The position numbers and the translations under genes were made by a program. A stretch of 64,000 nucleotides of DNA from Cephalothrix simula (taxonomy: Eukaryota > Nemertea > Palaeonemertea > Archinemertea > Cephalotrichidae). Shown here in pieces: positions 331 to 41,900 of this stretch. The notes under the pieces are model-generated. The model was not told the DNA's origin and searched no databases. It saw only the letters and a program-made list of their open reading frames with translations. Within the stretch, counting starts at the first letter, position 1. Every line of letters begins with the position of its first letter. The DNA is taken from positions 1 through 64,000 of the forward strand of contig JAXIUW010000007.1 in assembly GCA_035591015.1 (NCBI GenBank), in the 5' to 3' direction.

Positions 331-705
331 AAAAACCCTCTCGGTCTAAGTATTAGCAATGTTTAACTAATTTAAACTATCTAATGCCAAAGCCCTTTTG
401 GCCGAAGGCGTGAGCCTTCGGCCAAGTCCGGGAGTACAGAGGGCAATGCCCTCTGTCGGGGTTGTTAGGGGTGGAACCCCTGACACTAAATATTTTGGCA
501 AATAACCTTGCTTACTTGCATGGGTGCAAGGCAATTCTCTATTGCCTTGCCGGGGTGGAACCCCTAACACTAGCCACTTTGGCAAATAACCTTGCTTACT
601 TGCATGGGTGCAAGGCAATTCTCTATTGCCTTGCCGGGGCAGAGTCCCTAACACTAGTCGCTTTAGCGCATAGCCTTGCTGTGTTGGCAGCTGTAGCCTT
701 AGTCA
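331..705 (+). repeat. Hairpin-array repeat, copy A (3' of thiC)
   Basis: The order is: leader (331-399, similar to the leader of copy B read on the other strand), hairpin H1 (arms GGCCGAAGGC 400-409 and GCCTTCGGCC 414-423), H2 (ACAGAGGGC 436-444 and GCCCTCTGT 448-456), H3 (GGGGT and ACCCC, 468-480), then 84-bp tail units starting at 468, 552 and 636. Each of the first two units ends in a hairpin with arms GCAAGGCAAT and ATTGCCTTGC and loop TCTCT (526-550 and 610-634). The tail end lies beside the thiC stop codon. The unit length is a multiple of three, so an open frame runs through it, but the hairpin constraint explains the sequence better than coding does. Confidence 0.85.
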
Positions 706-719
706 AGAGCGGGTATGTG

Positions 720-2564
<1,845 letters not shown>

Positions 2565-7368: not shown

Positions 7369-7445
7369 CGCGGGGTAGAGCAGTCTGGTAGCTCGTTGGG
7401 CTCATAATCCAAAGGTCGAGGGTTCAAATCCCTCCCCCGCTACCA
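7369..7445 (+). tRNA. Initiator tRNA-Met (anticodon CAT)
   Basis: The 77 nt gene includes an encoded CCA. It begins CGCGGGG and its acceptor 3' strand is CCCCGC followed by T. Position 1 (C) therefore does not pair with position 72, the hallmark of a bacterial initiator tRNA. The anticodon loop is CTCATAA and the stem has the G-rich run (TTGGG) next to the loop. The usual 1:72 mismatch is C:A; here it is C:T. The 3' end is part of a direct repeat with a second copy about 206 bp downstream. Confidence 0.93.
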
Positions 7446-7514
7446 ATTAGCGCAATTATCTTATCAAATCAGCGGCTTTGCCTTGAGCGCAGTTCGGTTC
7501 TTGATGGCGAGCTT
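7438..7514 (+). repeat. Direct repeat copy 1, tRNA-fMet 3' end plus flank
   Basis: It begins with the last 8 nt of the tRNA (CGCTACCA) and continues through AATTAGC and about 65 bp of flank ending near GAGCTT. Copy 2 lies at about 7644-7728. Confidence 0.75.
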
Positions 7515-7643: not shown

Positions 7644-7728
7644 CGCTACCAATTAGCATAATGAGCGCAATTATCTTATCAAATCAGCGACTTTGCCTTG
7701 AGCGCAGTTCGGCTCTTGATGGAGCTTG
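7644..7728 (+). repeat. Direct repeat copy 2, tRNA-fMet 3' end plus flank
   Basis: CGCTACCAATTAGC recurs here without the rest of a tRNA. After about 8 extra bases it is followed by a near-identical copy of the flank (GCGCAATTATCTTATC, then the GCCTTGAGCGCAGTTCGG segment). The two copies enclose about 130 bp with only a doubtful 62-codon frame. The layout resembles attL/attR at a tRNA 3' end or a simple segmental duplication. Confidence 0.75.
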
Positions 7729-14284: not shown

Positions 14285-15151
14285 ATGTCTATTTTTGTAG
14301 ATAGCCATAGCAGAATAGTTGTTCAGGGAATTACCGGAACGCATGGGCGGTTGCATACTAAGGCCTGCCTAGAGTATGGCGCAAACATAGTTGGCGGAGT
14401 AACTCCGGGTAAGGGTGGCCAAAAGGTAGAGGGTGTTCCCGTTTTCAATCTTGTTCATGATGCAGTGCGTAACGTTGCCGCCAATACGGCGTTGATATTT
14501 GTGCCGGCTCCCTTTGCATCCGGAGCCATTATTGAGGCTGTTGACGCTGGGATAGATTTTGTGGTTTGCATCACCGAGGGCATTCCGGTGCTTGATATGA
14601 TCAAAGCCACCAATTATGTGAGAGCCCGTGGCAAACGGTTACTAGGTGGTAATTGTCCGGGAATAATCACCCCCGGAGAAACCAAAATTGGAATTATGCC
14701 GGGCTATATTCATAAGCCGGGTCATGTAGGAGTAGTCTCACGTTCAGGAACATTGACCTACGAGGCGGTGTGGCAACTTACTGAACTGGGCTTAGGGCAA
14801 AGCACCTGTGTGGGGATTGGTGGAGATTCGGTCAATGGCACCGGCTTCATTGATTGCTTAGAAGAATTTGAAAAAGATGAAACAACCCACGGCGTAGTGC
14901 TTATTGGTGAAATTGGAGGCTCAGCTGAAGAAGAAGCTGCCAAGTACATTAAAAAGAAGATGACTAAGCCGGTAGTGAGCTTTATTGCTGGGCAAACCGC
15001 TCCTCCAGGACGACGCATGGGTCATGCCGGTGCCATCATCGCCGGCGGCAAAGGCGGTGCTAAAGAAAAGATAGCTACCCTTCGTGAATGTGGCGTGCAT
15101 GTAGTTGATACCCTAGATAAAATCGGCTCCCAAATGAAAGAACTGCTGTAA
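14285..15151 (+). CDS. sucD: Succinyl-CoA synthetase alpha subunit
   Basis: The alpha subunit binds CoA and carries the phosphohistidine. The 288 aa protein has an N-terminal CoA-binding Rossmann domain ([28 protein letters not shown]), the NCPG motif, and the active-site His in GHAGAII near residue 245. A ribosome binding site AGGAG lies about 8 nt before the ATG. It forms an operon with sucC. Its 3' end runs into hairpin repeat copy B, starting about 45 bp after the stop. Confidence 0.97.
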
Positions 15152-15189
15152 TTCCCGCCCACTAAGTATTTCAAAATAACTAAGAACTC

Positions 15190-15500
15190 TGCCCGGCAAG
15201 GCAATAGAGAATTGCCTTGCGCCCATGTAAGTTAGCAAGGTTGCTCTGGGGGGTGGCTAGTGTTAGGGGCTCTGCCCCGGCAAGATGATAGAGAATCATC
15301 TTGCACCCAAGTAAGTTAGCAAGGTTGCTCTGGGGGGTGGCTAGTGTTAAGGGCTCTGCCCCTAACAACCCCGGCAGAGAGCCAGCTCTCTGCACTCTCA
15401 GACTTGGCCGAAGGCTTACGCCTTCGGCCAAAAAGGGCTTGATGTTATATAACTTAACTTAGTTAGGTATTGCAAATACTTAGACCGAGAAGGGATTTTA
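15190..15500 (-). repeat. Hairpin-array repeat, copy B (3' of sucD)
   Basis: Read on the minus strand the order is leader, H1, H2, H3, tail. Plus-strand positions: tail hairpins 15196-15220 (arms GCAAGGCAAT and ATTGCCTTGC) and 15280-15304 (arms GCAAGATGAT and ATCATCTTGC), 84 bp apart, both with loop AGAGA; H3 about 15347-15365; H2 GCAGAGAGC 15374-15382 and GCTCTCTGC 15385-15393; H1 GGCCGAAGGC 15406-15415 and GCCTTCGGCC 15420-15429; leader to about 15500. The second tail hairpin differs at three positions in one arm with matching changes in the other. Confidence 0.88.
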
Positions 15501-15700
15501 GAAATCAAAAGAACCACTTTACACCTTACGATAGCCAATCAACAAACTTTAGCCCTGCCTATAGGATTGTGCTAAAAGTAAAAAAGTTGATTAGACTATT
15601 AAGAAGATTGCTCAAACCACCAGCCAGCCTTATACCCATGTTAGTAAGAGCCTTTAGCTAATAGAGTTAGCCATGAACTTATATCTAAAGGCATAGATTA
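15501..15700. other. Spacer between facing repeat copies B and C
   Basis: No supported gene. A 63-codon frame at 15470-15661 starts inside the leader of copy B and lacks a ribosome binding site. Confidence 0.4.
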
Positions 15701-16085
15701 AGCACCGTTGCTAGGGGTGTGGGGAGCGCAGCAGCTCCCCACTAGGGGGAGGGTGAGGTGGACTAGTCCCCCTCACGAAGCCTCACTGCCGATGCTGATG
15801 AGTTTCTATAATTTTGAGGAGGCCGCTTCGGCAAAACGAACAATAATAGTCTTATTACCCAAAAATATTTTCCCTTTCGAGTAAGCCGTGATGTGATTTA
15901 TTTATTGTGGGTGCGTAAGCCCGTGAGGGCTTATCCAGCCCCAAAGAACTATCCTGAGAGTGCAGAGAGCTGGCTCTCTGCTGGGATTGTTAAGGGCAAC
16001 GCCCTTAACTAAATTAAATTCCAAACCTAACCTTGCTTAATTTAACTGTGCAAGATGATTCTTCTCTATGTCCTTGCGAGGCAGT
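15700..16085 (+). repeat. Hairpin-array repeat, copy C (3' of mrp)
   Basis: Copy C is more divergent. Hairpins: GTGGGGAGC with GCTCCCCAC near 15718-15742, a GTGAGG/CCTCAC stem around the palindrome GGACTAGTCC near 15750-15775, TAAGCCC with GGGCTTA near 15915-15932, GCAGAGAGC with GCTCTCTGC near 15963-15982, and TTAAGGGC with GCCCTTAA near 15990-16008. The last two match the H2-H3 order and spacing of the other copies. A degenerate tail hairpin follows to about 16080, just before the mrp stop codon. Confidence 0.72.
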
Positions 16086-16099
16086 GGCATTAATTGGGT

Positions 16100-17128
16100 T
16101 TAGATATCTTCTTGATTGATGATGGAATCAACCTTAGTGGCGATTTCAAGGAACAGGGTTTTAACGGGGTGTTCATCCATCACGGATATTGGTAGTCCGG
16201 TATCTCCGCCCATGCAGATGTCGGCGTTGATGGGCAGGCTGCCCAATAATTGTGTTGAGTATTCTTCAAGAACGGCACTCAACTTACTGGGGCCGAACAC
16301 TGGTGTGGTTTGGTGGCAGTGCGGGCATTCAAATTGGCTCATGTTTTTGACTATGCCTAGTATGGGAACATCAACCTTAGAGAACATCGCAATACCCTTT
16401 ACGGCATCAACCAAGGCAACGTCTTGCGGTGTAGTAACGATAACGGCCGCAGATATTTCTAGAAGCTGGCTTAATGAAAGTTGAACGTCACCTGTGCCCG
16501 GTGGTAGGTCAATAATCAGATAATCGCCACCCGGCCATAATGTATCATTCAATAATTGCTCAATTACTCGGTGCACTATGGGTCCACGCCAAATGGTGGC
16601 ATTATTCTCATCAACCAAATTACCTAGCGATATCATGGATATACCATGCTTTTCAATCGGGTAAATATTTTGGTCATTGTATTTGGGTTTGATATTGCGC
16701 AAGCCCATCATTATGGGTTGGCTAGGGCCGTATACATCGGCATCAAACAAAGACACCGAGCGTCCCAAATTAGCTAAACTAATGGCTAAGTTAACGGCAA
16801 CGGTAGATTTACCAACGCCTCCCTTGCCACTAGCTACGGCAATAATATATTTGTAATTATCGCAAAGACTGCTTTTGACGGCAGATTCGGCCTCACGGGG
16901 TTGCGTGAAGACAAACTCAATCTGGTCAATTTCTTTAATATCAACGACTTGCTCACGAATGGTAGCACTAATTTTATCTTGCAGGTCACGTTCTGGAATA
17001 GCTAGGGTAATCACCACCTTAGAACCCTGTACAACACAGCCCTGAACTACTCCAGCATCTAACAGATGCGAAGAGCCATAAGCTATGCTGGTGAATACAT
17101 TTTTAAACTGTTCTTCAAGATTACTCAT
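16100..17128 (-). CDS. mrp: Mrp/NBP35-family Fe-S cluster carrier ATPase (ApbC)
   Basis: This cytosolic P-loop ATPase holds and delivers 4Fe-4S clusters to apo-proteins. The 342 aa protein has an N-terminal MIP18/DUF59 domain (about residues 5-75), the deviant Walker A GKGGVGKST at about 105-113, the LIIDLPPGTGD switch region and the metal-binding CPHC. I chose the ATG at 17128 (MSNLEEQFK), because the 14 residues upstream do not belong to the family. No operon partner. Its substrates could include the Fe-S proteins encoded nearby (ThiC, the GlpC-like protein), which is inference. Confidence 0.93.
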   Translation of the reverse strand: MSNLEEQFKNVFTSIAYGSSHLLDAGVVQGCVVQGSKVVITLAIPERDLQDKISATIREQVVDIKEIDQIEFVFTQPREAESAVKSSLCDNYKYIIAVASGKGGVGKSTVAVNLAISLANLGRSVSLFDADVYGPSQPIMMGLRNIKPKYNDQNIYPIEKHGISMISLGNLVDENNATIWRGPIVHRVIEQLLNDTLWPGGDYLIIDLPPGTGDVQLSLSQLLEISAAVIVTTPQDVALVDAVKGIAMFSKVDVPILGIVKNMSQFECPHCHQTTPVFGPSKLSAVLEEYSTQLLGSLPINADICMGGDTGLPISVMDEHPVKTLFLEIATKVDSIINQEDI

Positions 17129-41455: not shown

Positions 41456-41550
41456 CCACTTGTGGGGCTCTGCCCCACGCCCCGACAGAGGACAAAGTCC
41501 CCTGTACCCCTAGTCTTGAGCGCAGCCGAAGCCTGCGCTCAAAAAGACTT
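41456..41550 (-). repeat. Hairpin-array repeat, copy D (3' of ParA-like gene)
   Basis: Read on the minus strand the order is H1-H2-H3. Plus-strand positions: H3 GTGGGGC 41462-41468 and GCCCCAC 41472-41478; H2 ACAGAGGAC 41485-41493 and GTCCCCTGT 41497-41505 (one mismatch); H1 TTGAGCGCAG 41516-41525 and CTGCGCTCAA 41533-41542. It has no 84-bp tail units. Confidence 0.85.
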
Positions 41551-41594
41551 AGGCAACAGTAAATGCAGTGGTAATTAGCTAAAAACCTGAGCCA

Positions 41595-41900
41595 ATACCC
41601 TTTTGACCGAAGGCGTAAGACTTCGGTCAAGTCAGTGGGTGCAGGGAGCATGCTCCCTGCTGGGATTGTTAAGGGCAAAGCCCTTAACCCTAGTAGCTTT
41701 CACAAATAACTTTGCTTTCACGACTGAGCAAGGCAATTCTCTATTGCCTTGCTGGAGCATCGCCCCTAACGCCAGTCGCATTGCCACGTGGCCTTGCTTA
41801 TTTGCATGGGTGCAGGGCAATTCTCTATTGCCCTGCTGGGCATCGCCCCCTAACAACTAGCCACTTGGTCAGGTAACCTTGCCTTGCTGGGCAAAGCCCT
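41595..41900 (+). repeat. Hairpin-array repeat, copy E (3' of VKOR gene)
   Basis: H1 TTGACCGAAG 41603-41612 and CTTCGGTCAA 41621-41630; H2 GCAGGGAGC 41641-41649 and GCTCCCTGC 41652-41660; H3 TTAAGGGC 41669-41676 and GCCCTTAA 41680-41687. Tail hairpins at 41728-41752 (GCAAGGCAAT and ATTGCCTTGC) and 41812-41836 (GCAGGGCAAT and ATTGCCCTGC) are 84 bp apart, loop TCTCT. It ends at the VKOR stop codon and faces copy D. Confidence 0.88.

Follow-up and report, generated by a model that had tools for sequence, protein, structure and literature searches.

A dispersed composite hairpin repeat with two inverted arms in the intergenic regions of a draft assembly

The window analysed here, a stretch of 64 kb, begins with a row of hairpins which an earlier note had grouped with four similar rows as five copies (A to E) of one array, in which the letters of the arms differ between copies while the pairing is kept. 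The locus raises the question of what kind of element this is and what holds its arms together.

Hairpins, arms and copies

In the window, 22 perfect hairpins (stem of at least 9, loop of 3 to 14) were found, one of these being merely a run of masked N, whereas five mononucleotide shuffles of the window gave 1 to 4 per shuffle. The hairpins are genuine, and their number lies far beyond chance expectation. The five rows contained 14 of the 22 (A 4, B 3, C 2, D 1, E 4). The H1 arms that had been named were all present, in hairpins at 398, 15404, 41516 and 41603, and the tail hairpins were confirmed to lie 84 bp apart (526/610, 15196/15280 and 41728/41812), with TCTCT or AGAGA as the loop. The supposed five copies proved to be halves of larger two-armed units: A, C and E run in one direction, B and D in the other. 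The repeat around A, to which the limits 331-705 had been given, is longer and extends over 197-680. The shared order H1-H2-H3 holds in general and fails for C, which is without H1, carries Hx in its place and has a decayed tail hairpin. The parts are as follows.

197-680, + strand: repeat region with array A, defined by a depth of at least 3 self-matches in 311 kb; right half of a two-armed unit, the other half being cut by the contig start (base 1 of contig C1 is base 1 of the window)
398-425, + strand: H1 of A, perfect 12-bp stem TTGGCCGAAGGC, loop GTGA
436-456, + strand: H2 of A, perfect 9-bp stem ACAGAGGGC, loop AAT
463-485, + strand: H3 of A, stem TGTTAGGGGT with one T.G pair, loop GGA
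526-550, + strand: tail hairpin H4 of A, perfect 10-bp stem GCAAGGCAAT, loop TCTCT
610-634, + strand: second tail H4 of A, 84 bp beyond the first
15181-16081, no single strand: B+C, a complete two-armed unit filling a gap of 948 bp whose convergent flanking genes are sucD and an ApbC/Mrp-like gene (score below the curated cut-off of that family)
15196-15220, - strand: outer H4 of B, stem GCAAGGCAAT
15280-15304, - strand: inner H4 of B, stem GCAAGATGAT, its 84-bp unit 89% identical to the neighbour unit
15345-15367, - strand: H3 of B, one G.T pair on the outward strand
15374-15393, - strand: H2 of B, stem GCAGAGAG
15404-15431, - strand: H1 of B, stem TTGGCCGAAGGC
15719-15776, no single strand: core of B+C with two H5 hairpins, 15719-15742 perfect and 15753-15776 with one mismatch
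15913-15936, + strand: Hx of C, an alternative inner hairpin replacing H1, read from the sequence; the Hx type also occurs in other copies
15962-15981, + strand: H2 of C, stem GCAGAGAG
15989-16009, + strand: H3 of C, stem GTTAAGGGC
16050-16077, + strand: decayed H4 of C with a 3-base insertion, owing to which it was left out of the pair counts
41464-41885, no single strand: D+E, the second complete two-armed unit, in a gap of 448 bp flanked by convergent ParA-like and VKOR-like genes (both scores below the curated cut-offs)
41485-41505, - strand: H2 of D, one G.T pair on the outward strand
41516-41542, - strand: H1 of D, stem TTGAGCGCAG
41603-41630, + strand: H1 of E, stem TTGACCGAAG
41641-41660, + strand: H2 of E, stem GCAGGGAG
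41668-41688, + strand: H3 of E, stem GTTAAGGGC
41728-41752, + strand: H4 of E, stem GCAAGGCAAT
41812-41836, + strand: second H4 of E, stem GCAGGGCAAT

The repeat takes up 95% of the 948-bp gap (B+C) and 94% of the 448-bp gap (D+E), and B matches C in inverted orientation with 77% identity over 110 bases. The only open reading frame of at least 100 codons in the three units of the window is 462-776 (104 codons, TTG start), over array A.

A search for further copies was made in the assembly (8.6 Mb in 580 contigs, which may be incomplete) and many were found. Copy A gave at least 64 matches and the stretch 15500-16085 (core and arm C) at least 67, while the H4 hairpin pattern occurred at 119 places with at most one mismatch, against none for the reversed pattern used as control. 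Many of the listed matches lie at contig ends, as is expected since repeats break assemblies. The layout was determined in a sample of 311 kb from 17 contigs, the window included; the H4 pattern was also found on at least four contigs beyond these (C47, C91, C97 and C270). An 88-base profile of the tail unit (nhmmer), built from two seed units, gave 109 hits in the 311 kb, and the H4 counts below use the 97 complete ungapped ones, 12 having been dropped as incomplete or because of an insertion or gap.

Read outward, an arm consists of H1 (or Hx), H2, H3 and H4, the last often repeated and nearest to the flanking gene; slots can be missing. The 172 steps between same-direction neighbours comprised 124 forward steps, 40 repeats of H4, 6 restarts at H1 or H2 after H4 and 2 repeats of H3, with none backward. 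The modules are ordered and their tandem number varies, 164 of the 172 steps being either forward or a repeat of H4. Among 20 complete intergenic regions, 13 had the arrangement '<>', 3 '<><>', 3 '>' only and 1 '<' only, and none was simply inward, so that both arms, facing outward as in inverted terminal repeats, were present in 16 of the 20. In this count of arrangements the profile took a few H2 for H4, which are excluded from the 172 steps, and at one of the three '>' junctions (C1 near 117500) it missed an opposite-direction H4 present in the pattern list. At contig edges, three groups showed a '><' contact where two units abut, and 16 of the 18 one-direction groups pointed towards a flanking gene; next to the remaining two no gene was called on that side. 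The outer ends of the arms, judged by eye, vary in position and show no crisp end. The repeat is a composite of two inverted arms around a core, with a foldback-like layout; five separate copies were rejected, the arms pairing up as outward two-armed units.

Pairing of the arms and descent of the stem alleles

The two arms of H4 are held paired beyond independent variation. In the 311 kb, 45 of 970 H4 pairs were mismatched (4.6%, that is 95.4% pairing, with two badly decayed copies included), compared with the 19.1% (80.9% pairing) that independent arms of the same column composition would give. For H1 to H3, 34 of 1356 pairs were mismatched, a rate that is biased low in this set picked by a hairpin finder. 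The claim that pairing is kept is thus borne out against the independent-arm expectation, and is too strong where exact pairing was meant. In 42 aligned H4 units, 97.3% of the cells paired as against 89.6% in shuffles, the covariation score was 0.301 vs 0.155 (0/500 shuffles as high) and double-changed cells numbered 59 vs 15.7 (again 0/500). The shuffles keep relatedness in. The two measures least swayed by relatedness were both weak: 7 pairs with any double change vs 5.2 (19/500 shuffles as high) and 13 further pair types vs 14.5 (499/500).

The number of stem changes behind this pattern is small. Six perfect H4 stem alleles were found, namely GCAAGGCAAT (35), GCAAGATGAT (18, including three whose loop is changed), GCAGGGCAAT (11) and the rarer GCAGGGCTAT (4), GCAGGACAAT (3) and GCAAAGCAAT (1). 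Spanning trees of the perfect stems of the four slots, with the stems of H1 to H3 cut to 8-11 positions, required 19 steps and 27 pair changes; one pair changed in 13 steps, two in 4 and three in 2. The H3 alleles tracked the flank lineage in all 45 classifiable cases (27 + 18; 15 of the 60 H3 were unclassed), and the H2 alleles mostly tracked the kind of inner hairpin that precedes them. Since these alleles follow lineage, much of the apparent repeated compensation is descent. The covariation claimed earlier therefore survives in so far as aligned H4 units pair above shuffles, but few independent stem changes are involved, and much of it comes from few alleles, two arm lineages and block switches.

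Whole stem alleles also appear to have moved between units. Three H4 alleles each occur on both distinguishable spacer types. Of 22 perfect pairs of tandem H4 neighbours, 16 carried one and the same stem allele (0.33 expected). The neighbouring 84-bp units in B, which are 89% identical, differ in three base pairs, each changed in both arms. Where the spacers of two units agreed to 85% or more (131 unit pairs, some units entering several of them), the stems were identical in 48; in 40 the same base pairs were altered on both sides, in 26 a single arm differed, and in 17 the two arms differed unequally. There are also chimaeric hairpins, whose left and right arms belong to different alleles. Together, the chimaeras, the alleles on both spacer types and the two-arm differences indicate that block exchange is part of the story. 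The same chimaeras and two-arm differences, in B and in the 40 of 131 pairs, would be produced if the repeats were a purely mutational product, in which palindromes arise and are repaired through slippage, recombination and template switching at the fork, while the fold itself is not selected; template switching can cause compensatory changes in two arms, according to passages of PMC8794818. We regard this as an unlikely explanation of the whole, in particular because a neutral process leaves the near invariance of the H4 loop unexplained. Non-majority cells made up 1.2% of the loop, 12.6% of the stem and 20.4% of the spacer, and TCTCT was exact in 91 of 97 units. Inversion of the loop, a strong mark of template switching, was observed in 0 of 97 H4, and none of 60 H3 loops occurred in both orientations. 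The passages of PMC8794818 describe loop inversions together with compensatory changes as extremely rare too, so that their absence here counts little. Loops in both orientations were limited to AAA/TTT (H1, 2 and 4) and AAT/ATT (H2, 2 and 7). Hairpins that flip as a whole were rejected as a candidate, no H4 among the 97 having its loop turned round.

That the loop is kept on a drifting stem suggests that what is recognised is the folded hairpin, with its loop being read. It also means that the earlier conclusion, selection on the fold and not on sequence, went too far, as the H4 loop is more constant than either stem or spacer. With more than 100 hairpins of one slot in a single assembly, few stem alleles, a nearly constant loop, chimaeras and recent tandem duplicates, the family lends itself as a natural experiment, in which stepwise compensation, template switching and block exchange could be compared as routes by which two paired arms come to change jointly. 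It is also a warning for structure calls made from repeats, because 'covariation' among paralogous copies within one genome overstates the number of independent events.

Location of the units and the folded strand

Genes were taken as simple longest-ORF calls, and the gap types are accordingly approximate. Complete gaps with units (n = 19) comprised 8 convergent, 10 tandem and 1 divergent, while 207 background gaps from five sampled stretches comprised 22 convergent, 159 tandem and 26 divergent. Convergent gaps are thus enriched (8/19 vs 22/207, binomial p = 4e-4), also against gaps of at least 150 bp (11/66, p = 0.008), which are the fairer base since arrays lengthen gaps. The depletion of divergent gaps was not significant (1/19 vs 26/207, p = 0.50; vs 15/66 gaps of at least 150 bp, p = 0.10). 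Both arms were also present in 8 tandem gaps and in the one divergent gap, so that the two-armed form is a property of the element itself, and a reading as modules of gene 3' ends was rejected. Passages of PMC3049150 report that the pneumococcal BOX, RUP and SPRITE repeats also favour convergent gaps, which is taken there as a sign of mobile, tolerated DNA.

The enrichment between convergent genes would also suit a functional RNA, in which the transcribed arms would stabilise 3' ends, serve as processing sites or separate convergent genes as barriers acting in both directions, and selection on the RNA fold would keep the pairing. The stretch 331-705, folded alone, is in line with this (z of -8.35 on the + strand and -6.30 on the - strand), as is the H1 loop, GTGA in 13 of 32 and GTAA in 1 of 32, which in RNA would be a GNRA tetraloop. 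The presence of the same two-armed form in tandem and divergent gaps speaks against it. One-sided mismatches, counted on the outward strand with two decayed hairpins left out, were 41 G.T, 10 A.C and 15 others, the two contig strands being alike (19 + 22 G.T); such an excess of G.T over A.C would favour an RNA. The excess was 33 vs 10 for distinct hairpins and 19 vs 7 for distinct positions, and the spacers used as control showed a like bias of 1.5-1.9 to 1. At backgrounds of 0.60, 0.62 and 0.665, p was 0.0025, 0.006 and 0.04 for all mismatches, 0.03, 0.06 and 0.20 for distinct hairpins, and 0.23, 0.31 and 0.54 for distinct positions. The excess is at most a hint of folding of one strand. Moreover, the outward strand is antisense to the adjoining convergent gene, and a simple 3'-UTR role is therefore not favoured. 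The pair changes showed no excess of transitions over the spacers (20/27, p = 0.42). Intrinsic terminators were not in excess either, with 1 terminator-like site in 15100-16200 vs 1.0 expected and no U tract. With Rfam 15 at gathering score, no match fell in the arrays and the only ones in the window were two tRNAs elsewhere. An RNA function is possible, and as an account of the family as a whole we consider it rather unlikely.

The BIMEs of E. coli have been proposed as sites for a chromosome-structuring protein or gyrase, and the palindromes described here could be DNA-binding arrays of that sort. This would agree with the fixed orientation and with the constancy both of the loop and of spacer words, for instance CCTTGCTT, in the 84-bp unit. 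The stem letters differ among alleles, unlike those of a double-stranded binding site, and the arrays are unevenly distributed, being found on the 93-kb contig C11 at its start only. We hold such a role to be highly improbable.

The spacer word CCTTGCTT, nearly constant, occupies columns 23-30 of the 88-base H4 profile. Its first part (CCTTGC) could pair alternatively with the left arm of the most frequent H4 allele, to which it is complementary; this alternative pairing stays put while the H4 alleles change.

Proposed explanation, host and known relatives

The explanation towards which we lean, if only slightly, is that these palindromic composites, non-coding and dispersed, form a family of mobile DNA that is non-autonomous and read via a folded strand. 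The element would have been copied into many intergenic regions, favouring convergent gaps, where insertion harms least. An enzyme acting in trans would recognise and copy only units of which one strand folds well and exposes the H4 loop ATTCTCTAT, and this recognition would keep the stems matched while their letters drift among few alleles. The H4 units would multiply and shrink by unequal recombination or slippage in 84-bp steps, and short-tract conversion or template switching during replication may help to move whole stem alleles between units. Mobility of this kind is supported by the 119 H4 places, the two-armed layout, the convergent enrichment, the pairing of H4, the constant loop and the sharing of alleles. 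It is weakened in that no empty site, target duplication or crisp outer end was seen and no transposase of the three families searched was found in the assembly. Depletion of divergent gaps would be expected if insertions harm promoters, and its lack of significance counts against mobility as well.

The earlier note knew of no described family with this layout. This is right in that the arrays have no Rfam match and the two-armed layout is unusual; no paper was recognised as describing it in literature judged mainly by titles, starts of abstracts and passages. The general kind is known, however, from REP, BIME and BOX repeats. High-copy intergenic palindromes in arrays are shared with REP, REPIN and BIME sequences, and as in REPs the many intergenic palindromic copies have stem variants that are kept paired. 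Passages of PMC3733652 describe sub-families of REP stems with alternative complementary residues and G.T pairs, and passages of PMC3116915 describe REPINs as doublets in inverted orientation in which compensatory changes are called common. With compensatory and alternative stems already known in REPINs and REPs, covariation alone is not new; what is new is the composite repeat with its two-armed foldback layout.

Several differences from these families were found. The REP tag was absent as a regular feature, GTAG within 8 bases and reading in being present at 1 of 302 hairpins and CGTC at none of 302 (3.8 and 1.6 expected by chance). REPs and REPINs have one or two palindromes and an associated Y1/RAYT gene; here there are several ordered slots with an 84-bp tandem tail, and no such gene in the assembly. 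The BOX repeats of Streptococcus pneumoniae, as passages of PMC3049150 present them, have ordered modules, variable tandem middle modules, a predicted RNA fold and enrichment between convergent genes. They thus resemble the present repeat in being an ordered composite with a variable number of tandem modules and convergent-gap enrichment, and differ in forming a single A-Bn-C row instead of two inverted outward arms, each with its own variable tail. Foldback transposons such as Galileo of Drosophila are eukaryotic and have known transposase-coding sequence, while no defined ends were seen here. In sponge mitochondrial genomes, repetitive hairpin-forming elements also fill intergenic regions (PMC2800124); in the passages of that paper these lie in organelle DNA and consist of single to triple hairpins, not ordered multi-slot arms. 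A survey of 40 bacterial genomes reported 92 families of stem-loop repeats, many of them intergenic and predicted to fold (PMC2267715); a host of the present kind is absent from its table, and its passages describe no two-armed composite.

The host is perhaps a distant, SAR324-like bacterium. The only bacterial 16S found lies on the array-bearing contig C326 and is, over nearly its full length, 77% identical to the 16S of a Luteimonas genome, in a comparison in which 12 of the 20 named genomes tried gave any match. Among the best-ranked named protein matches, the S41 protease was closest to the SAR324 cluster (48%) and Mfd to a record labelled 'Deltaproteobacteria' (43%). SucC matched the SAR324 cluster at 63-64%, ranked after nameless matches of up to 66% and one called only 'bacterium'. 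Two of the three protein searches would thus place the host near the SAR324 cluster. ThiC (window 720-2555) is 72-73% like gammaproteobacterial ThiC, and the best 80 of its 588 matches are mostly from gammaproteobacterial genomes. This figure, compared with best matches of 43-66% for the three other window proteins, possibly reflects transfer.

Candidate partner enzymes were searched for in the assembly, whose draft state makes any absence weak evidence. PF01797 (Y1/RAYT transposase), PF02371 (IS110 C-terminal domain) and PF01609 (DDE_Tnp_1) each gave 0 matches in it, while as positive control they were present in 5, 4 and 9 of 14 genomes, respectively. A RAYT-driven REP was rejected on the lack of both PF01797 and the GTAG/CGTC tag, and partners of the IS110 and DDE_Tnp_1 types on the zero counts for PF02371 and PF01609. 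The integrase core rve was present at 8 places, none on the contigs listed with arrays; in assembly G000 these are C480, C363, C48, C171, C126, C63, C438 and C570. Five of the eight matches lie in open frames of about 1350-1580 codons, which we take to resemble eukaryotic retrotransposon polyproteins, and the assembly may be that of a eukaryote with associated bacteria.

The H4 pattern had no exact match in GTDB species genomes or IMG/VR, and copy A no blastn match among the plasmids and phages searched, the window's own records being perhaps excluded in both cases. On this evidence, which is weak, a phage, plasmid or viral origin was set aside. A more specific proposal is that the repeat represents a new kind of bacterial foldback element, with exchangeable hairpin modules making up its two arms. 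It would be copied via a folded single strand by an enzyme other than Y1/RAYT, which would read the constant H4 loop ATTCTCTAT while the stem sequence varies. We rate this proposal as decidedly doubtful.

Two other repeats were observed apart from the arrays. A tRNA in the window is followed closely by a direct repeat of 63 bases (7445-7507 and 7660-7722), whose copies are 95% identical and offset by 215 bases. On contig C11, 66260-66461 and 66623-66823 form a repeat inside a 608-codon open reading frame, with up to 11 self-matches.
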